Source of the DNA: Acidimicrobiaceae bacterium
GTDB taxonomy: Bacteria; Actinomycetota; Acidimicrobiia; Acidimicrobiales; RAAP-2
NCBI GenBank assembly: GCA_003138855.1
Contig: PLHF01000055.1
Location: 1 to 64,000 of the forward strand
Direction: 5' to 3'
Length of the DNA stretch: 64,000 bases
The notes beneath the pieces were generated by a model. The model saw only the letters and a program-made list of their open reading frames with translations, was not told where the DNA came from and searched no databases. Every line of letters starts with the position of its first letter. Within the stretch, counting starts at the first letter, position 1. Shown one piece after another: positions 53,165 to 59,081 of this stretch. Position numbers and translations under genes: made by a program.

Positions 53165-53791
53165 ATGGATCGACGGTCGAAGGCCGGGGCGAAGGCCGGG
53201 GCGAAGGGGGGGTCGAACAAGAGCTCGCCTCCCGAAGCCGGCGAGCCGGTGCGGTCGCCCATGTCCCCGTCCCGGCGGGCCCTGGTGCTCAATGCCACGT
53301 TCGAGCCACTGGGTATCGTCTCGTCCCGGCGGGCTGTGCTCCTCGTGCTCGACACCAAAGCGGAGCTCGTCCATGCCACCGAACGGGTGTTCCGGGCCGA
53401 GCGGATGAGCGTGCCGGAGCCTTCGGTGGTGCGGCTGGTCCGCTACGTGCACGTCCCCCTCCACTACCGGGTGGCGGTCAACCGCCGGACGGTCTTCGCC
53501 CGTGACGGTTCACGATGCCAGTACTGCGGGTCGGCGGCCGAGAACCTCGACCACGTCATCCCCAGGAGCAAGGGAGGCCCCCACACGTGGGAGAACGTGG
53601 TCGCGGCCTGTCGGCGTTGCAACACACGCAAGGAGGACCGGCTGCCCCATGAGGCCGGGATGGTCCTGCGCTGCACACCGGTCGCCCCCCGGCACCGGGT
53701 GCAGTTGCTGGCCCTGTGCGGTGGGGCCGGCGAGGAGTGGGGCACCTACCTCGGCTCCCCCCTTTCCGATCGGGGCCAGTTGACGGCGTGA
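53165..53791 (+). CDS. HNH endonuclease family protein
   Basis: A 208-residue protein. A basic low-complexity start (repeated Ala-Gly-Ala-Lys) precedes a conserved [19 protein letters not shown] block near residue 40, then an HNH nuclease core with CQYCG near 119, the catalytic His in [11 protein letters not shown] near 128 and [13 protein letters not shown] near 142. Widespread single-copy actinobacterial HNH proteins have this form; their DNA target is unknown. It is not linked to any mobile element here. Confidence 0.88.
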
Positions 53792-53808
53792 GTCTCGGGG
53801 GACCCAGG

Positions 53809-53823
53809 GCCCCGCACCGGGGC
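53809..53823 (+). terminator. Short hairpin after the HNH gene
   Basis: GCCCCG and CGGGGC form a 6-base stem with loop CAC, 18 bases after the stop. Weak alone but in a suitable place. Confidence 0.35.
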
Positions 53824-53899
53824 ATCCACTGGAGCCGGCGGACGGTTCCGGTCGGTACCATCCCGAGGTCCGCAGCGAGCCCGACAGGAGTGTGAACCG

Positions 53900-54613
53900 G
53901 TGACCGGTGGCTGGAGGATCGACGAGCGGAAGGGGGCGGCATCGGAGCTCCACGCCTCGTGGCCGGCTGTCGACGCTGCCCCCGGGGTCCGCGCGGTGGC
54001 GCTCTGCCGGGTGACGGCTCCGGCCGTCGTGCTCGGCTCGACCCAGTCGGAGTCGGTCGTCGACCGTCGGCGGGCCGGCGCCGCGGGCATCTCGGTGGCC
54101 CGGCGCCGATCGGGTGGGGGTGCCGTGCTGGTCACCGCCGACGACCCGGTGTGGATCGATGTCTGGATCCCCTCCGGCGACCCACTCTGGCACGCAGACG
54201 TCGAGCGGGCCTTCGACTGGATCGGAAGCGCCTGGGCCTCTGCCCTCGGCAGCGCGGGCCTCGAGGGGCTGTCCGCCCACCGGGAGGGCTCGGCGGCGTG
54301 CACCCGGTGGTCCAAGCTGGTCTGCTTCGGGGGAGTCGGAGCCGGCGAGGTGGTCACCGGGGACGGGCGCAAGATCGTGGGACTCGCCCAACGCCGAAAT
54401 CGCCACGGAGCCTGGTTCCACGGGGCCTGCGTGCTCCGTTGGGATCCGGCGCTCCTCGTTGACCTCTTGGATCTTCCCGAGGCCGAACGGAACGAAGCGA
54501 CGGCGGATCTCGCTGCCGCCGTGGCCGGTGTGGCCGACCTCGTGGAGGCGGCGGGTGGCACCGCACCTGATGCCTCCACGGTCGCAGCTTGGCTGATCGC
54601 CGCGCTGCCCTGA
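53900..54613 (+). CDS. Lipoate-protein ligase A-like protein (BPL/LplA fold)
   Basis: A 237-residue protein of the biotin/lipoate ligase fold. RRRSGGGAVLV near residue 70 matches the lipoate-binding loop, and DGRKIVGLAQRRNRHGAWFHGACVL near 155-178 matches the second core motif with the catalytic Lys. Members attach or transfer lipoyl or octanoyl groups. It is shorter than LplA (about 340) and lacks the C-terminal accessory domain. GTG 53900 has AGGAG 9 bases upstream, and TACCAT at 53856 may be a -10. A hairpin follows it. Confidence 0.8.
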   Translation: MTGGWRIDERKGAASELHASWPAVDAAPGVRAVALCRVTAPAVVLGSTQSESVVDRRRAGAAGISVARRRSGGGAVLVTADDPVWIDVWIPSGDPLWHADVERAFDWIGSAWASALGSAGLEGLSAHREGSAACTRWSKLVCFGGVGAGEVVTGDGRKIVGLAQRRNRHGAWFHGACVLRWDPALLVDLLDLPEAERNEATADLAAAVAGVADLVEAAGGTAPDASTVAAWLIAALP

Positions 54614-54653
54614 CCCCGGACGCCGCCAAGGGTACTCCTCGTCCCCGTGGCGA

Positions 54654-54673
54654 GCACCGCCCCCCGGCGGTGC
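54654..54673 (+). terminator. Hairpin after the LplA-like gene
   Basis: GCACCGCC and GGCGGTGC form a perfect 8-base stem with loop CCCC, 41 bases after the stop. It isolates the dcw promoter from upstream reading. Confidence 0.65.
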
Positions 54674-54760
54674 GCGCCGGTCGATGCGCCCCGATCCGAT
54701 CGCCGCGTCCCGACCCGGGGACCCGCGCTGCCTGATTGGTCGGATTCGGCGCCCAAGTGG

Positions 54761-54789
54761 TTGACGGGTGGGGGATAGGGGAATAGAGT
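54761..54789 (+). promoter_or_regulatory. mraZ (dcw cluster) promoter TTGACG-N17-TAGAGT
   Basis: TTGACG (54761-54766) and TAGAGT (54784-54789) are 17 bases apart, a good vegetative promoter 80 bases upstream of mraZ. Its -10 overlaps the first of three MraZ-like boxes. Confidence 0.75.
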
Positions 54790-54812
54790 GGCGCAAAGTG
54801 GTGTGAAAGGGA
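54785..54812 (+). promoter_or_regulatory. Three direct-repeat MraZ boxes
   Basis: AGAGTGG (54785), AAAGTGG (54795) and AAAGGGA (54806) are direct repeats spaced 10 and 11 bases apart. MraZ proteins are known to bind short direct repeats of this kind (for example AAAGTG-type boxes) in front of their own operon. The position over the -10 and transcription start fits autorepression. Confidence 0.7.
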
Positions 54813-54813
54813 G

Positions 54814-54833
54814 GGATCTGAACGGTCAGATCC
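54814..54833 (+). ncRNA. Hairpin in the mraZ leader
   Basis: GGATCTGA and TCAGATCC form a perfect 8-base stem with loop ACGG, shortly after the predicted transcription start and 36 bases before the mraZ start. It could affect mRNA stability or translation. Confidence 0.5.
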
Positions 54834-54869
54834 TGGGCACTGCGGGGAGCATTGTGGGAGCAATCACCA

Positions 54870-55289
54870 GTGGCACGGTTCTTCGGCAGGTACGAGCACT
54901 CGCTCGACGACAAGGGAAGGGTGATCCTCCCGGCCAAGTTCCGCGGTCAGTTCGAACACGGGGGCTATCTGACCGAGTACCAGGACGGGTGCTTGTCGCT
55001 GTGGACTCCGGACGAATTCGAGCTGCAGATGGAGTCGATGCTGCAGCGGGCCAACTCGGGGAGGAGCGATCGGAACCTGGTGCGCCTGTGGGCGTCGACA
55101 TCCCACGAGTTGGAGATCGACAGGCAGGGGAGGATGGCCATTCCGGCTCGTCTGCGCGAGTACGCCGGCCTGGTGGGCGACGTCCTGGTGCTCGGAGCGA
55201 TCGACCGGGTCGAGCTGTGGAATCGGGACTCCTGGGACGAGAAGGTCCTGCCCGAAGAGGAACGTCTCACACAGGGCGACGACGGTTGA
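54870..55289 (+). CDS. mraZ: Transcriptional regulator MraZ
   Basis: A 139-residue protein with two SpoVT/AbrB-like halves: RYEHSLDDKGRVILPAKFR near residue 6 and SHELEIDRQGRMAIPARLR near 76, both with the DxxGR motif. It forms a ring and binds direct repeats before its operon. GTG 54870 was chosen to give ARFFGRYEHSL at the N-terminus and has GGGAG 9 bases upstream; TTG 54852 would add six residues. Confidence 0.94.
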   Translation: MARFFGRYEHSLDDKGRVILPAKFRGQFEHGGYLTEYQDGCLSLWTPDEFELQMESMLQRANSGRSDRNLVRLWASTSHELEIDRQGRMAIPARLREYAGLVGDVLVLGAIDRVELWNRDSWDEKVLPEEERLTQGDDG

Positions 55290-55702
55290 GTGACGCGGTG
55301 CGCCTGCATGTCGTGCGACACGGATCCGATGGAGCGGCCGAGGGTGGCCCTGGTGCCGGTGCCGCCAGCTCGACCGCCGACCACGGACTCCGCGGCGTCG
55401 ATGGCCGGAACGGATCGGACAGCTCGGATAAAACGGATGGAAGGAGCCCCATCAGAAGGATCACCACATCGGCCCTGTTCACACAGGTCAGGCCCGCTGT
55501 CGACTTTTCGGGTTCCCCGAGCCGCCCGACGCCTTACCAATCGGGGTTGGCCGCGGTGGCCCGTCACGATGTTCACATCGAACGCGTCTGGCCCATGCGC
55601 AGTCCCTCGACCGGATCGCTGGAAGAATCCTCCTCCGCCTACTTCCAGAGTGATCGTCGCGGCACTCCACCCGCTGGCATCGTGCCGGTCGGGGGACTGC
55701 GG
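55290..55702 (+). other. 413-bp mraZ-rsmH gap with leader RNA structure and two weak open frames
   Basis: No recognisable gene. Two frames stay open: one from GTG 55290 (138 codons, its TGA overlapping the rsmH ATG) and one from GTG 55298, in frame with rsmH and able to add 135 residues to it. Third-position GC is clearly lower than in the neighbouring genes in both frames, and neither product is recognised. The 3' part holds a structured element (see 55600-55660). I favour a long untranslated spacer or leader. Confidence 0.5.
55600..55660 (+). ncRNA. Candidate mraW RNA motif upstream of rsmH
   Basis: CTGGAAG (55619-55625) pairs with CTTCCAG (55642-55648), leaving a 16-base loop that contains TCCTCCTCC. 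It is preceded by gcgcagtccctcgaccggat. A conserved actinobacterial hairpin RNA upstream of mraW (rsmH) operons, the mraW RNA motif, is described with a hairpin and a conserved terminal loop. Position and form agree here, though I could not run the covariance model. The pyrimidine loop could pair with a Shine-Dalgarno sequence, such as GGGGGA before rsmH. Confidence 0.55.
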
Positions 55703-56698
55703 ATGAGCCAGGCATTCCCCCACGAGCCCGTGATGGCCTCCGAAGTGGTCGACCTGTTCGCGCCGGTACCGCCGGGCCTGGTCGTCGACGCCACCCTGGG
55801 AGGTGCCGGTCACGCCGCCGCCCTGCTACGCGCCCATGCCGGGATCCAACTGCTCGGGATCGACCGTGATCCGGCCGCAGTCGCCGCGGCAGGCGATGTC
55901 CTGGCACCGTTCGGGCCCCGGGCCATGGTCCGCTGGTCGCGCTTCGATGCGTTGGCCCAGGTGGTCCGTGAGGTCCAGGCCGAGCTCGGGACGCCCCCCG
56001 AGGAACGGGGTCTCAGTGGCGCCCTGTTCGACCTCGGCGTCAGCTCGCCGCAACTCGATGTGGCCGAACGTGGCTTCTCCTATCGGCGCGACGCCGCCCT
56101 CGACATGAGGATGGACCCGACCTCGGGGCGGACCGCCGCCGACGTGGTGAACGAGTTCGACGAGCAGGACCTGGTCGAACTCTTCGCCGAGAACGGCGAG
56201 GTACGGTTCGGCCGCCGCATCGCCCGTGCGATCATCGCGGCGCGGCCGGTGACGACGACCGGCCAATTGGCCGATGTGGTCCGAGCGGCGATCCCGGCAG
56301 CCACCCGGCGAACCGGGGGCCACCCGGCGCGTCGTGTGTTCCAGGCCATCCGGATCGCCGTCAACGAAGAGCTGGACCAACTGGGCAGCGCTCTCGACGA
56401 TGCGCTGGCCCTGCTCCGGCCCGGTGGTCGGTGCGTGGTGATCGCCTACCACTCCGGAGAGGACCGCCTGGTGAAGACCGCGTTCACCCGGGCCGCCACC
56501 GACAACTGCCAGTGCCCACCCGGTCTCCCTTGCGTGTGCGGTGCCGATCCGCAGTTCCGCCTGGTGGTAAGGGGTTCGCGGCGTCCCACGAGCGACGAGA
56601 TCGAGCGGAACCGGCGCGCCGATGCCGCCCGATTACGGGTGATCGAGCGGCTGTCCGCAACGTCAAGCCCCTCGGAGTCCAGTGGCGAGGTGGCGTGA
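55703..56698 (+). CDS. rsmH: 16S rRNA (cytosine-1402-N4)-methyltransferase
   Basis: A 331-residue SAM methyltransferase acting on C1402 of 16S rRNA. HEPVMASEVVDLF at the N-terminus, SAM motif VVDATLGGAGHAAALL near 26 and LFDLGVSSPQLDVAERGFSYR near 110 are diagnostic, as are FQAIRIAVNEELDQL near 212 and AYHSGEDRLVK near 249 (usually YHSLEDR). ATG 55703 has GGGGGA about 6 bases upstream. ftsL starts on its stop (one-base overlap). Also known as mraW. Confidence 0.96.
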   Translation: MSQAFPHEPVMASEVVDLFAPVPPGLVVDATLGGAGHAAALLRAHAGIQLLGIDRDPAAVAAAGDVLAPFGPRAMVRWSRFDALAQVVREVQAELGTPPEERGLSGALFDLGVSSPQLDVAERGFSYRRDAALDMRMDPTSGRTAADVVNEFDEQDLVELFAENGEVRFGRRIARAIIAARPVTTTGQLADVVRAAIPAATRRTGGHPARRVFQAIRIAVNEELDQLGSALDDALALLRPGGRCVVIAYHSGEDRLVKTAFTRAATDNCQCPPGLPCVCGADPQFRLVVRGSRRPTSDEIERNRRADAARLRVIERLSATSSPSESSGEVA

Positions 56699-57234
56699 TG
56701 GCGCCGCCGGCCACTGCCGCCGCCCGGCGCTCCACCGCCCGGACCCAACCCCGCCCGGCGCCGTCGGGCCCGAGGCGGCCACCGCTGCGGATCTTCGAGC
56801 CGGCGCCGCGTCGGCGACCCGGGATCCGCCTGGTCCGCCGGCCGACGATGTGGATCTCCGGCATCCTCGTGGTCGGGAGCCTCCTGGCCGTCGTGGCCGG
56901 TGACGCCATGGTGGCCCAGGGGCAAGTCCGGCTGTCCACCACCCAGGCCGAGGTGACGGCAGCGGTCACCGCCCAGAAGACACTGCAGAGCGCGGTGGCC
57001 GAGATGTCCGCCCCGACCCGGGTCGTCTTCCAGGCGGAGAACCAGCTGGGCATGGTGGCACCGGCGCAGGTGGTCGATCTCCCCGAGGTACCGCTCGATG
57101 TGCCCCTACCGACCCCGCAGACGGCGCCGCTCCCCGGGGCTGCCCCGGCCGGGGCGGCTGCCGCAGCCGGTGCCACGACGCCGGCATCCACCGGCACCGC
57201 CGGTTCGACCACCACCACCCCGGCCACGCGGTGA
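56698..57234 (+). CDS. ftsL: Probable cell division protein FtsL
   Basis: A 178-residue single-pass membrane protein: basic Pro-rich cytoplasmic start, one helix (MWISGILVVGSLLAVVAGD, about residues 51-69), then a heptad-rich stretch (VRLSTTQAEVTAAVTAQKTLQSAVAEM, about 77-103) and a Pro/Ala/Thr-rich tail. FtsL is poorly conserved, so the call rests on this layout and on its place between rsmH and ftsI. It would pair with FtsB/DivIC and FtsQ in the divisome. Both ends overlap neighbours. Confidence 0.8.
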   Translation: MAPPATAAARRSTARTQPRPAPSGPRRPPLRIFEPAPRRRPGIRLVRRPTMWISGILVVGSLLAVVAGDAMVAQGQVRLSTTQAEVTAAVTAQKTLQSAVAEMSAPTRVVFQAENQLGMVAPAQVVDLPEVPLDVPLPTPQTAPLPGAAPAGAAAAAGATTPASTGTAGSTTTTPATR

Positions 57235-59081
57235 GCCCCTCGGTGCTCCTGGGTCGGCGCGCACGCGCCATGCGCCTGGTGCTGGTCCTGGTCTTCGCGG
57301 CCCTGGTCCTCCGCCTCGTCGCCGTCCAGGAGTTCTCGCACCAGCACTACGCAGCGTTGTCGGCATCCGAGCTGACCCAGACGGTGACGGTTCCGGCCGT
57401 CCGTGGAGGCGTCTACGACCGGAACGGCGAGGTGCTGGCCGAGACGGTGACCAAGCAGACCGTGGTGGCCGACCCCCTCCTGATCACCCACCCGGCACCC
57501 ATCGCCGCCGCCTTGTCACCGGTGCTCGGGGTGCCCACCGACCAGCTGCGCGCCGAGCTCACCGAGAACTCAGGCTTCGTCTACCTGGCCCATCGGGTGT
57601 CCGACGCGGTCGCCGCCAAGGTGACCTCACTCAACCTGACGGGCATCAACCTGATTCCGGAGACCCAGCGGGTCGAGCCCGACGGGCTGCTGGCCCAACC
57701 GGTGATCGGGTCGGTGGGGTATGACGGCAACGGATCCGGGGGCCTGGAGTACCAGTACCAGTCGCTCCTGGCTGGCAAGGCCGGAACCAAGAGCCTGCTG
57801 GAGGCGCCCGATGGGGTCACCCTTCCGGGTAGCACCGGCGCCGCCGTGGCCGCCGTGCCGGGCAGCGGGCTGGAGCTGACCCTCGACGAGTCGGTCCAGT
57901 ACATCGCCGAACAGGCGCTCGGGGCCGAGATCGTCGCCTCCCATGCCCAGGGCGGCACGGCAGTGGTGATGGATGTCAAGACGGGGGACATCCTGGCCAT
58001 GGCCGACCTCCAGGCAACGTCGAGCACATCGGGATCATCTTCGGGAGCCGCCGGAAGCGGCACGTCGGCCGCGGACACGTCGGGCCCGACGCTGGTCTCC
58101 TCGGCGACCACCCTCCCCCCAGGCGTGGAGCAGGCTCCCTCCAACACGGCGGTGACCAAGGTCTACGAGCCCGGATCCGTGTTCAAGCTGGTTACCTTCT
58201 CGGCGGCGCTCGCCTCAGGCCACATCACCCCGAACCAGGTGGTGCAGGTCCCCGGCTCACTCCCGATGGGGCAGTATACGTTCCACGATGCCGAAGCTCA
58301 CGGGACGGAAAGTCTGACGGCGACCTCCATCCTGGCCCAGTCCTCCAACATCGGGACCATCGAGGTGGCCGAGGGGCTCGGGGAGAGTCGTCTCCTCGCG
58401 CAGATCGGCAACCTCGGATTCGGGAAGCCGACCGGCCTGGACTTCCCCGGTGAATCGGAGGGGCTGGTCCCGGGCCCGGCTGCGTGGACCGGCACCTCGA
58501 TCGGCTCCACCCCGATCGGCCAGGATGACGCGGTGACCGCCCAGCAAATCCTCGATGCCTACAACGCGGTGGCCAACAGCGGCGTCTACGTCGCTCCCCG
58601 GCTGGTCCGGGGCGCGGTCAGCCCGTCGGGTTCGGTCACCGCTGCACCACCCTCGCCGACCCGCCGGGTGATCGACCCGACCACCAACGCCGAGCTGGTG
58701 TCGATGCTCGAGGCGGTGGTCTCGACCGGCACGGGCACCAGCGCAGCCATCGACGGGTACACCGTGGCCGGCAAGACCGGTACCGCCCAGATCCCCGATC
58801 CCAATCACCTGGGGTACATCCCCGGCGCGTACGTCGGGTCGTTCGCCGGCTTCGCCCCGGCCGAGCACCCGGTCCTCTCGGCGATCGTGGTCCTCGACCA
58901 TCCCACCCCCATCTACGGTGGGGCCGTGGCGGCTCCGGTCTTCTCGACGATCATGGCCTACGCCCTGCACCATTACGGCATCCCGACCACTGCAGCCGCC
59001 ACGACCTCGGCATCAAGTACGGCCGTCGGCAGCACGGGTACCATCACCGTGCCGGCCGGAGCTGTCACGGAAGGGCCGTAG
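57231..59081 (+). CDS. ftsI: Septal peptidoglycan transpeptidase (class B PBP)
   Basis: A 616-residue penicillin-binding protein. One N-terminal helix (LVLVLVFAALVLRLVAV near 16-32), the dimerisation region with RGGVYDRNGEVLA near 58, and the transpeptidase domain with S-x-x-K in PGSVFKLVT near 322, S-x-N in QSSNIG near 382 and K-T-G in AGKTGTAQ near 514. It cross-links septal peptidoglycan with FtsW. A Ser/Gly/Thr-rich insert lies before the active Ser (about 262-300), and the C-terminus is a disordered Thr/Ser tail. GTG 57231 overlaps ftsL by 4 bases. Confidence 0.95.
   Translation: MSPSVLLGRRARAMRLVLVLVFAALVLRLVAVQEFSHQHYAALSASELTQTVTVPAVRGGVYDRNGEVLAETVTKQTVVADPLLITHPAPIAAALSPVLGVPTDQLRAELTENSGFVYLAHRVSDAVAAKVTSLNLTGINLIPETQRVEPDGLLAQPVIGSVGYDGNGSGGLEYQYQSLLAGKAGTKSLLEAPDGVTLPGSTGAAVAAVPGSGLELTLDESVQYIAEQALGAEIVASHAQGGTAVVMDVKTGDILAMADLQATSSTSGSSSGAAGSGTSAADTSGPTLVSSATTLPPGVEQAPSNTAVTKVYEPGSVFKLVTFSAALASGHITPNQVVQVPGSLPMGQYTFHDAEAHGTESLTATSILAQSSNIGTIEVAEGLGESRLLAQIGNLGFGKPTGLDFPGESEGLVPGPAAWTGTSIGSTPIGQDDAVTAQQILDAYNAVANSGVYVAPRLVRGAVSPSGSVTAAPPSPTRRVIDPTTNAELVSMLEAVVSTGTGTSAAIDGYTVAGKTGTAQIPDPNHLGYIPGAYVGSFAGFAPAEHPVLSAIVVLDHPTPIYGGAVAAPVFSTIMAYALHHYGIPTTAAATTSASSTAVGSTGTITVPAGAVTEGP

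Follow-up and report, generated by a model that had tools for sequence, protein, structure and literature searches.

In the genome of an Acidimicrobiaceae bacterium, mraZ and rsmH are separated by a gap whose 3' part encodes, as the covariation among relatives has shown, a conserved structured RNA. It is best described as a class-wide RNA family, separate and apparently undescribed, that stands at the place of mraW RNA. We analyzed this gap within a window of 64,000 nt (the whole stretch of DNA studied), in which the gene order is mraZ-rsmH-ftsL-ftsI. The cluster is otherwise tight, the ftsL-like ORF ending at 57234 and the ftsI-like ORF starting at 57231, with a gap of 62 nt after ftsI. The 413 nt that the initial annotation gave for the mraZ-rsmH gap, from the mraZ stop at 55289 to the rsmH ATG at 55703, are correct, as is its end at 55702. 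The features that we recognize are the following.

54870..55289, + strand: mraZ (GTG start at 54870, TGA at 55287-55289; Pfam MraZ match)
55290..55706, + strand: second stop-free frame (mraZ frame), a candidate coupling ORF, from GTG 55290 to TGA 55704-55706
55298..55702, + strand: putative N-terminal extension of RsmH in the rsmH frame, with possible starts at GTG 55298 or at TTG 55286, which overlaps the mraZ stop (no stops in 20 loci; third-position excess; tblastn)
55590..55713, + strand: whole structured RNA element (covariance model match of 101.2 bits; covariation; fold z-score)
55590..55614, + strand: 5' strand of P1, GGCCCAU-G-CGCAGUCCCUCGACCGG (fold; 23 of 24 pairs changed on both sides, 93.1% of cells paired)
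55619..55648, + strand: P2 hairpin, the one seen in the initial annotation (sequence, fold, covariation)
55633..55639, + strand: near-invariant loop motif CUCCGCC (CUCCGC invariant in 46 aligned sequences)
55656..55678, + strand: P3 hairpin, approximate ends (fold, covariation helix)
55665..55671, + strand: CUCCACC, a repeat of the motif inside the P3 loop, specific to the family (14 of its loci have it at this place)
55685..55709, + strand: 3' strand of P1, with an SD-like GGGGGA and the rsmH AUG (fold, covariation)
55691..55696, + strand: SD-like GGGGGA of rsmH, 6 nt before the AUG, all bases paired in P1 (sequence)
55703..56698, + strand: rsmH (mraW), core reading from the conserved AUG (Pfam PF01795, E = 4.5e-97)

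Upstream of mraZ, Pfam matches identified an HNH endonuclease-domain protein (53165-53791) and a lipoate/biotin ligase-like protein (53900-54613). Just before mraZ, at 54761-54830, there is a sigma-70-like promoter (TTGACG-17-TAGAGT) that overlaps repeated GTGG units (AGTGGTT, GGGTGGGG, GAGTGGCGC and AAGTGGTGT), which we take to resemble MraZ operator repeats and regard as candidates.

Fold, covariation and the conserved loop

The element has about 120 nt and is predicted to fold as a three-way junction, closed by P1 and with P2 and P3 branching off. The minimum free energy of 55590-55713 was -67.8 kcal/mol (z = -5.1), and none of 200 dinucleotide shuffles was as stable. P1 is a helix of 23-24 bp in which 55590-55614 pairs with 55685-55709, broken by one C.A and one G.G mismatch, and in the predicted fold it takes up both the SD-like sequence and the start codon of rsmH. 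The 7-bp stem described before (CTGGAAG at 55619-55625 with CTTCCAG at 55642-55648, enclosing the loop AATCCTCCTCCGCCTA at 55626-55641) is present exactly as proposed. The idea of a structured spacer stands in that a covarying RNA with a C-rich loop lies just before rsmH, and the hairpin on which it was built turned out to be only one arm of a larger fold.

Compensatory changes were looked for in 46 relatives, aligned with MAFFT and with no structure information (alignment A1). RNAalifold predicted 28 pairs on this alignment, 26 of them changed on both sides. Taking the full structure of 41 pairs (P1, P2 and P3), 33 pairs and 215 cells had changed on both sides in the 46 sequences, as against 19.7 pairs and 68.1 cells in the shuffle controls. 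Paired cells amounted to 90.4% (79.9% in the shuffles), a percentage that leans towards the structure because this was partly derived from the same 46 sequences; the excess of covariation far exceeds that bias. When the partner was slid by 1-3 columns, pairing fell to 33-46% and the cells changed on both sides to 35-57. All five measures were above 500 of 500 shuffles and above all slides, which is what we looked for in a conserved structured RNA. The strand can also be told: GU cells outnumber AC cells (139 vs 61) and the covariance model scores 101 bits on the sense strand vs 46 on the other, indicating an RNA read from the + strand.

The P2 loop has the consensus CUCCRCC, with CUCC(G/A)C(C) as its near-invariant form. 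Over 95 loci, the UCC and the C that follows were invariant, the base between them was G in 91 loci, the other 4 having A, and the preceding C was found in 94. Even genomes of about 1 Mb, in which the stem sequence is different, keep the element with the same loop, UACUCCGCCC, and with the AUG in P1. The initial annotation had read this loop as an anti-Shine-Dalgarno sequence. The first-position C of the CCUCC core is present in only about a third of the relatives (32 of 95 loci), and a conserved anti-SD loop or Shine-Dalgarno decoy was rejected on this ground. A kissing contact between the P2 and P3 loops was also considered, because GGAG, the complement of CUCC, occurs in the P3 loop of many relatives; it is missing from the genus of the window, and CUCC itself never varies. 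The conservation of the loop, together with its second copy in P3, points to recognition of the sequence by a partner, and the loop probably serves to bind a factor by which the structure closed by P1 would be stabilised or released.

Distribution and comparison with mraW RNA

By translated search, 192 of the 198 genomes searched in the order had rsmH, and the same kind of search with the gap alone gave matches in many members of the family of the window. The first 30 loci were followed by the 60 that ranked next, whose upstream regions we fetched; these are less selected for the gap, as their rank came mostly from the rsmH core, and in most of them complementary arms were found before rsmH. 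The covariance model, R1, had matches in 207 of the 298 genomes searched in the order and in 308 of 395 when the search covered the class Acidimicrobiia. This class label rests on the names of close relatives, uncultured Acidimicrobiales/Acidimicrobiaceae from metagenomes, and on general taxonomy; most of the relatives are metagenome-assembled genomes. Filters were strict whenever more than 40 genomes were searched, so that absence in some genomes may reflect lost weak matches. In a sample of 246 genomes from the phylum, the 14 with R1 matches all belonged to the class, and the rsmH regions of other classes and phyla, many of which have short gaps, gave no match better than E = 0.056 (R1 E-values are rough, the calibration having been short). 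The gene context is constant: all 42 distinct R1 matches that were fetched and checked sit between mraZ and rsmH on the same strand. Among 100 loci searched, 9 were devoid of the element and several of these had 2-8 nt between mraZ and rsmH, indicating that the element is dispensable. Four members of the order without it (L073, L089, L097 and L105) have mraZ and rsmH almost touching or overlapping, as if the element and the gap had been lost together.

The initial annotation had compared the spacer to mraW RNA, which Weinberg et al. (2010; PMC2864571) list among the candidate cis-regulators, for Actinomycetales. In C. glutamicum this RNA was observed close to the transcription start of mraW (PMC3890552), and in C. 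diphtheriae it is placed upstream of that start (PMC5784534). The identity did not hold. The model of the family, RF01746, detected its targets in the controls (Corynebacterium and others). At 53500-57500 nothing matched it up to E = 10, and at the gathering score of 50 bits the window was free of matches; the genome itself had none either, nor did ten relatives with E-values up to 5, so membership was rejected. The element is not among the families of Rfam 15. Matches to mir-9195 and SpF59 were far below threshold and taken as chance. Among the papers searched we found none on an rsmH leader other than mraW RNA.

Both RNAs are candidate cis-regulators placed between mraZ and rsmH (upstream of mraW/rsmH) in Actinomycetota, with a long helix and a C-rich terminal loop. 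However, mraW RNA is a single long hairpin with the loop ACUUCCCC on a CCUG...CAGG stem, whereas here we find a three-way junction with a CUCCRCC loop and a P3 arm instead. They also differ in their hosts (Actinomycetales and Acidimicrobiia, respectively) and in their exact location, since in L052 mraW RNA ends about 90 nt before the rsmH homology, while P1 of the element includes the rsmH start codon. That the element might still be a member or a distant homologue of the mraW family is a doubtful proposition. It is favored, besides the shared features, by the fact that some other orders of the class have a form without P3, shrunk to one long hairpin, and by the weak scores that R1 gives on some mraW loci when run without filters. 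Nevertheless, those scores are of the size obtained with unrelated inverted repeats (32 bits for one in L055), and the absence of RF01746 matches here and in the ten relatives means that the element works like mraW RNA at most. In L052 and L054, mycobacteria-like loci with a true mraW RNA, the rsmH frame is also open through this RNA back into mraZ; translation through the leader may thus be shared with mraW RNA loci.

Open frames across the gap

In the family of the window the rsmH frame is open through the entire gap, with no stops in any of 20 members. Most members of the family have ATG or GTG at the position of its candidate start, GTG 55298. Over seven independent species pairs, the substitutions upstream of the element numbered 96/90/202 at codon positions 1/2/3 of this frame (p = 5e-14), whereas inside the element they were 16/24/21 in the pairs compared, with no third-position excess. 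We conclude that the upstream 300 nt or so are protein-coding in the rsmH frame, as an N-terminal extension of RsmH, while the element is held by structure rather than by protein. Pfam gave no match for the extension. Its beginning in the family (55286-55345) reads (M/V)RLH(L/V/I)VRHG, reminiscent of the RHG motif of histidine phosphatases.

The frame of GTG 55290 continues that of mraZ past its stop. As the initial annotation had noticed, it ends on the rsmH start, its TGA at 55704-55706 overlapping the ATG as ATGA, and this is repeated in 20 of 20 family loci. No stops were found in these 20 loci against 32 +- 5 expected from shuffled rsmH-frame codons (the third frame has 47), while the same test on control genes gave 59 vs 75 expected for rsmH and 48 vs 61 for mraZ. 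A substitution simulation over eight independent pairs likewise expected 13.4 stops where none was seen. A coupled ORF had been presented as the competing view to an RNA. The frame is indeed kept stop-free with its ATGA, and the two are not exclusive; constraint of the amino-acid type is found in the rsmH frame.

That the ORF from GTG 55290 makes a functional small protein is improbable: the stop-free frame and the ATGA end in all 20 loci would fit, yet the frame has no third-position pattern and no Pfam match, and its peptides are variable and rich in Pro, Arg and Ser, typical of out-of-frame reading. We give hardly any credit to the whole gap being plain coding sequence, an N-terminal extension of RsmH with an incidental fold, since the open rsmH frame, the third-position excess over the 300 nt that precede the element and the protein-level matches by tblastn are set against the massive covariation and lack of third-position excess in the element, which refute it there although not for the upstream part, and the element persists in 9 of 96 loci where the rsmH frame closes within it. 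A purely protein-level reading of the tblastn conservation was rejected for the element too, the conserved residues (MRSPS...GLRM and SSA) being the P1 arms and the loop.

Beyond the family, the frame statistics omit the first 30 order-level loci because these had been picked by similarity in the rsmH frame. Of 46 less-selected loci, 44 had at least one frame that ran without a stop from the end of mraZ to the side of P1 next to rsmH, when 28.6 were expected from mononucleotide shuffles and 33.9 +- 2.5 (maximum 40) from dinucleotide shuffles. A gap frame fixed relative to mraZ over the whole order was considered and rejected: it appeared in 46 of 49 loci of the sample selected by rsmH-frame matches, but the sample not so chosen split 28/19/12, and the claim is limited to the family of the window.

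A proposed start-site lock and its alternatives

Among the 96 loci with the element, the 3' strand of P1 holds an in-frame rsmH start in 74, an AUG opening a short ORF in 12 and neither in 10. An SD-like motif precedes the start-like codon in P1 in 83 of 86 loci. As P1 buries the start signal, translation of rsmH probably depends on ribosomes that come from upstream. From the structure we infer that the RNA is a cis-acting lock on the start site of rsmH, opened by upstream translation, and we hold this best explanation to be reasonably probable. New 30S subunits would be unable to enter at a start site buried in P1. Ribosomes that have finished mraZ would restart in the leader (at GTG 55290 or 55298), run on and melt the element. 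They might then terminate on the ATGA, with rsmH restarting at AUG 55703, or stay in the rsmH frame and produce an N-terminally extended RsmH; in either way RsmH output would be tied to upstream translation. The open frame in 44 of 46 loci means that a ribosome can nearly always pass from mraZ through the element, as a lock opened from upstream needs. In L069, L078 and L099 the AUG in P1 is not the rsmH start and opens short ORFs of 6, 22 and 37 codons whose stops lie at most a few bases from where rsmH homology begins (with an ATGA overlap in L069), suggesting a detached coupling ORF.

There are known relatives of such an arrangement. Like translational coupling and ribosomal-protein leaders, the element would place a start site in a helix that upstream translation can open, with candidate feedback on a gene of the translation machinery; the leader here differs in having two frames free of stops, of which one runs on into the target protein. 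Against the lock stand the 22 of 96 loci in which P1 has no in-frame rsmH start. Burial of the start is therefore not the sole function of the element, and L093 and L110, with the element upstream and P1 without an AUG, speak for a further role, perhaps with the same partner. The nine loci that do without the element count against it too, and so does the loop, whose conservation suggests a ligand or partner when pure coupling needs none.

A broader reading, to which we assign something less than an even chance, is that in the family of the window one stretch of DNA has three jobs: the lock on the rsmH start, the RsmH extension and the mraZ frame, kept stop-free so that ribosomes coming out of mraZ would terminate right at the rsmH AUG, with the loop read by a dedicated factor, perhaps RsmH. 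A more specific proposal, autoregulation, seems unlikely: RsmH, or another 16S-binding factor, would bind the CUCCRCC loop, perhaps as a mimic of the C1402 strand, and repress its own mRNA. Maintenance of the loop throughout the class, even in low-GC genomes, and the rise of a second copy in P3 in the genus of the window are in its favor. A 7-mer, CCGCCCG, is common to the consensus loop and the 16S strand around C1402, the base methylated by RsmH (a general 16S sequence was used here, not that of this genome), a likeness reached by 3% of shuffles. But the loop of the window shares only 5 nt (24% of shuffles do likewise), and 4 of 95 loci have A in place of the G that matches G1401, so that the case for mimicry, made by sequence likeness, is weak. 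Less likely still would be a processing site, for RNase III or another activity, at which mraZ is cut off from the rsmH-fts mRNA. A helix of 23-24 bp is a plausible substrate for a double-strand RNase; however, processing leaves the start codon paired in 74 of 96 loci, the invariant loop and the open frames without explanation.

Apart from the proposed lock on the rsmH start, the head of the cell-wall and division cluster, for which mraW RNA with its unknown function had been the only RNA described, gains a family that spans the class, covaries very strongly and has a loop that hardly varies. A structured RNA over which two overlapping frames stay open is a further result. What RsmH modifies is the ribosomal decoding site, and the element therefore makes a link between ribosome maturation and the expression of division genes directly testable. 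If the loop were read by RsmH itself, ribosome maturation would feed back on the division operon.
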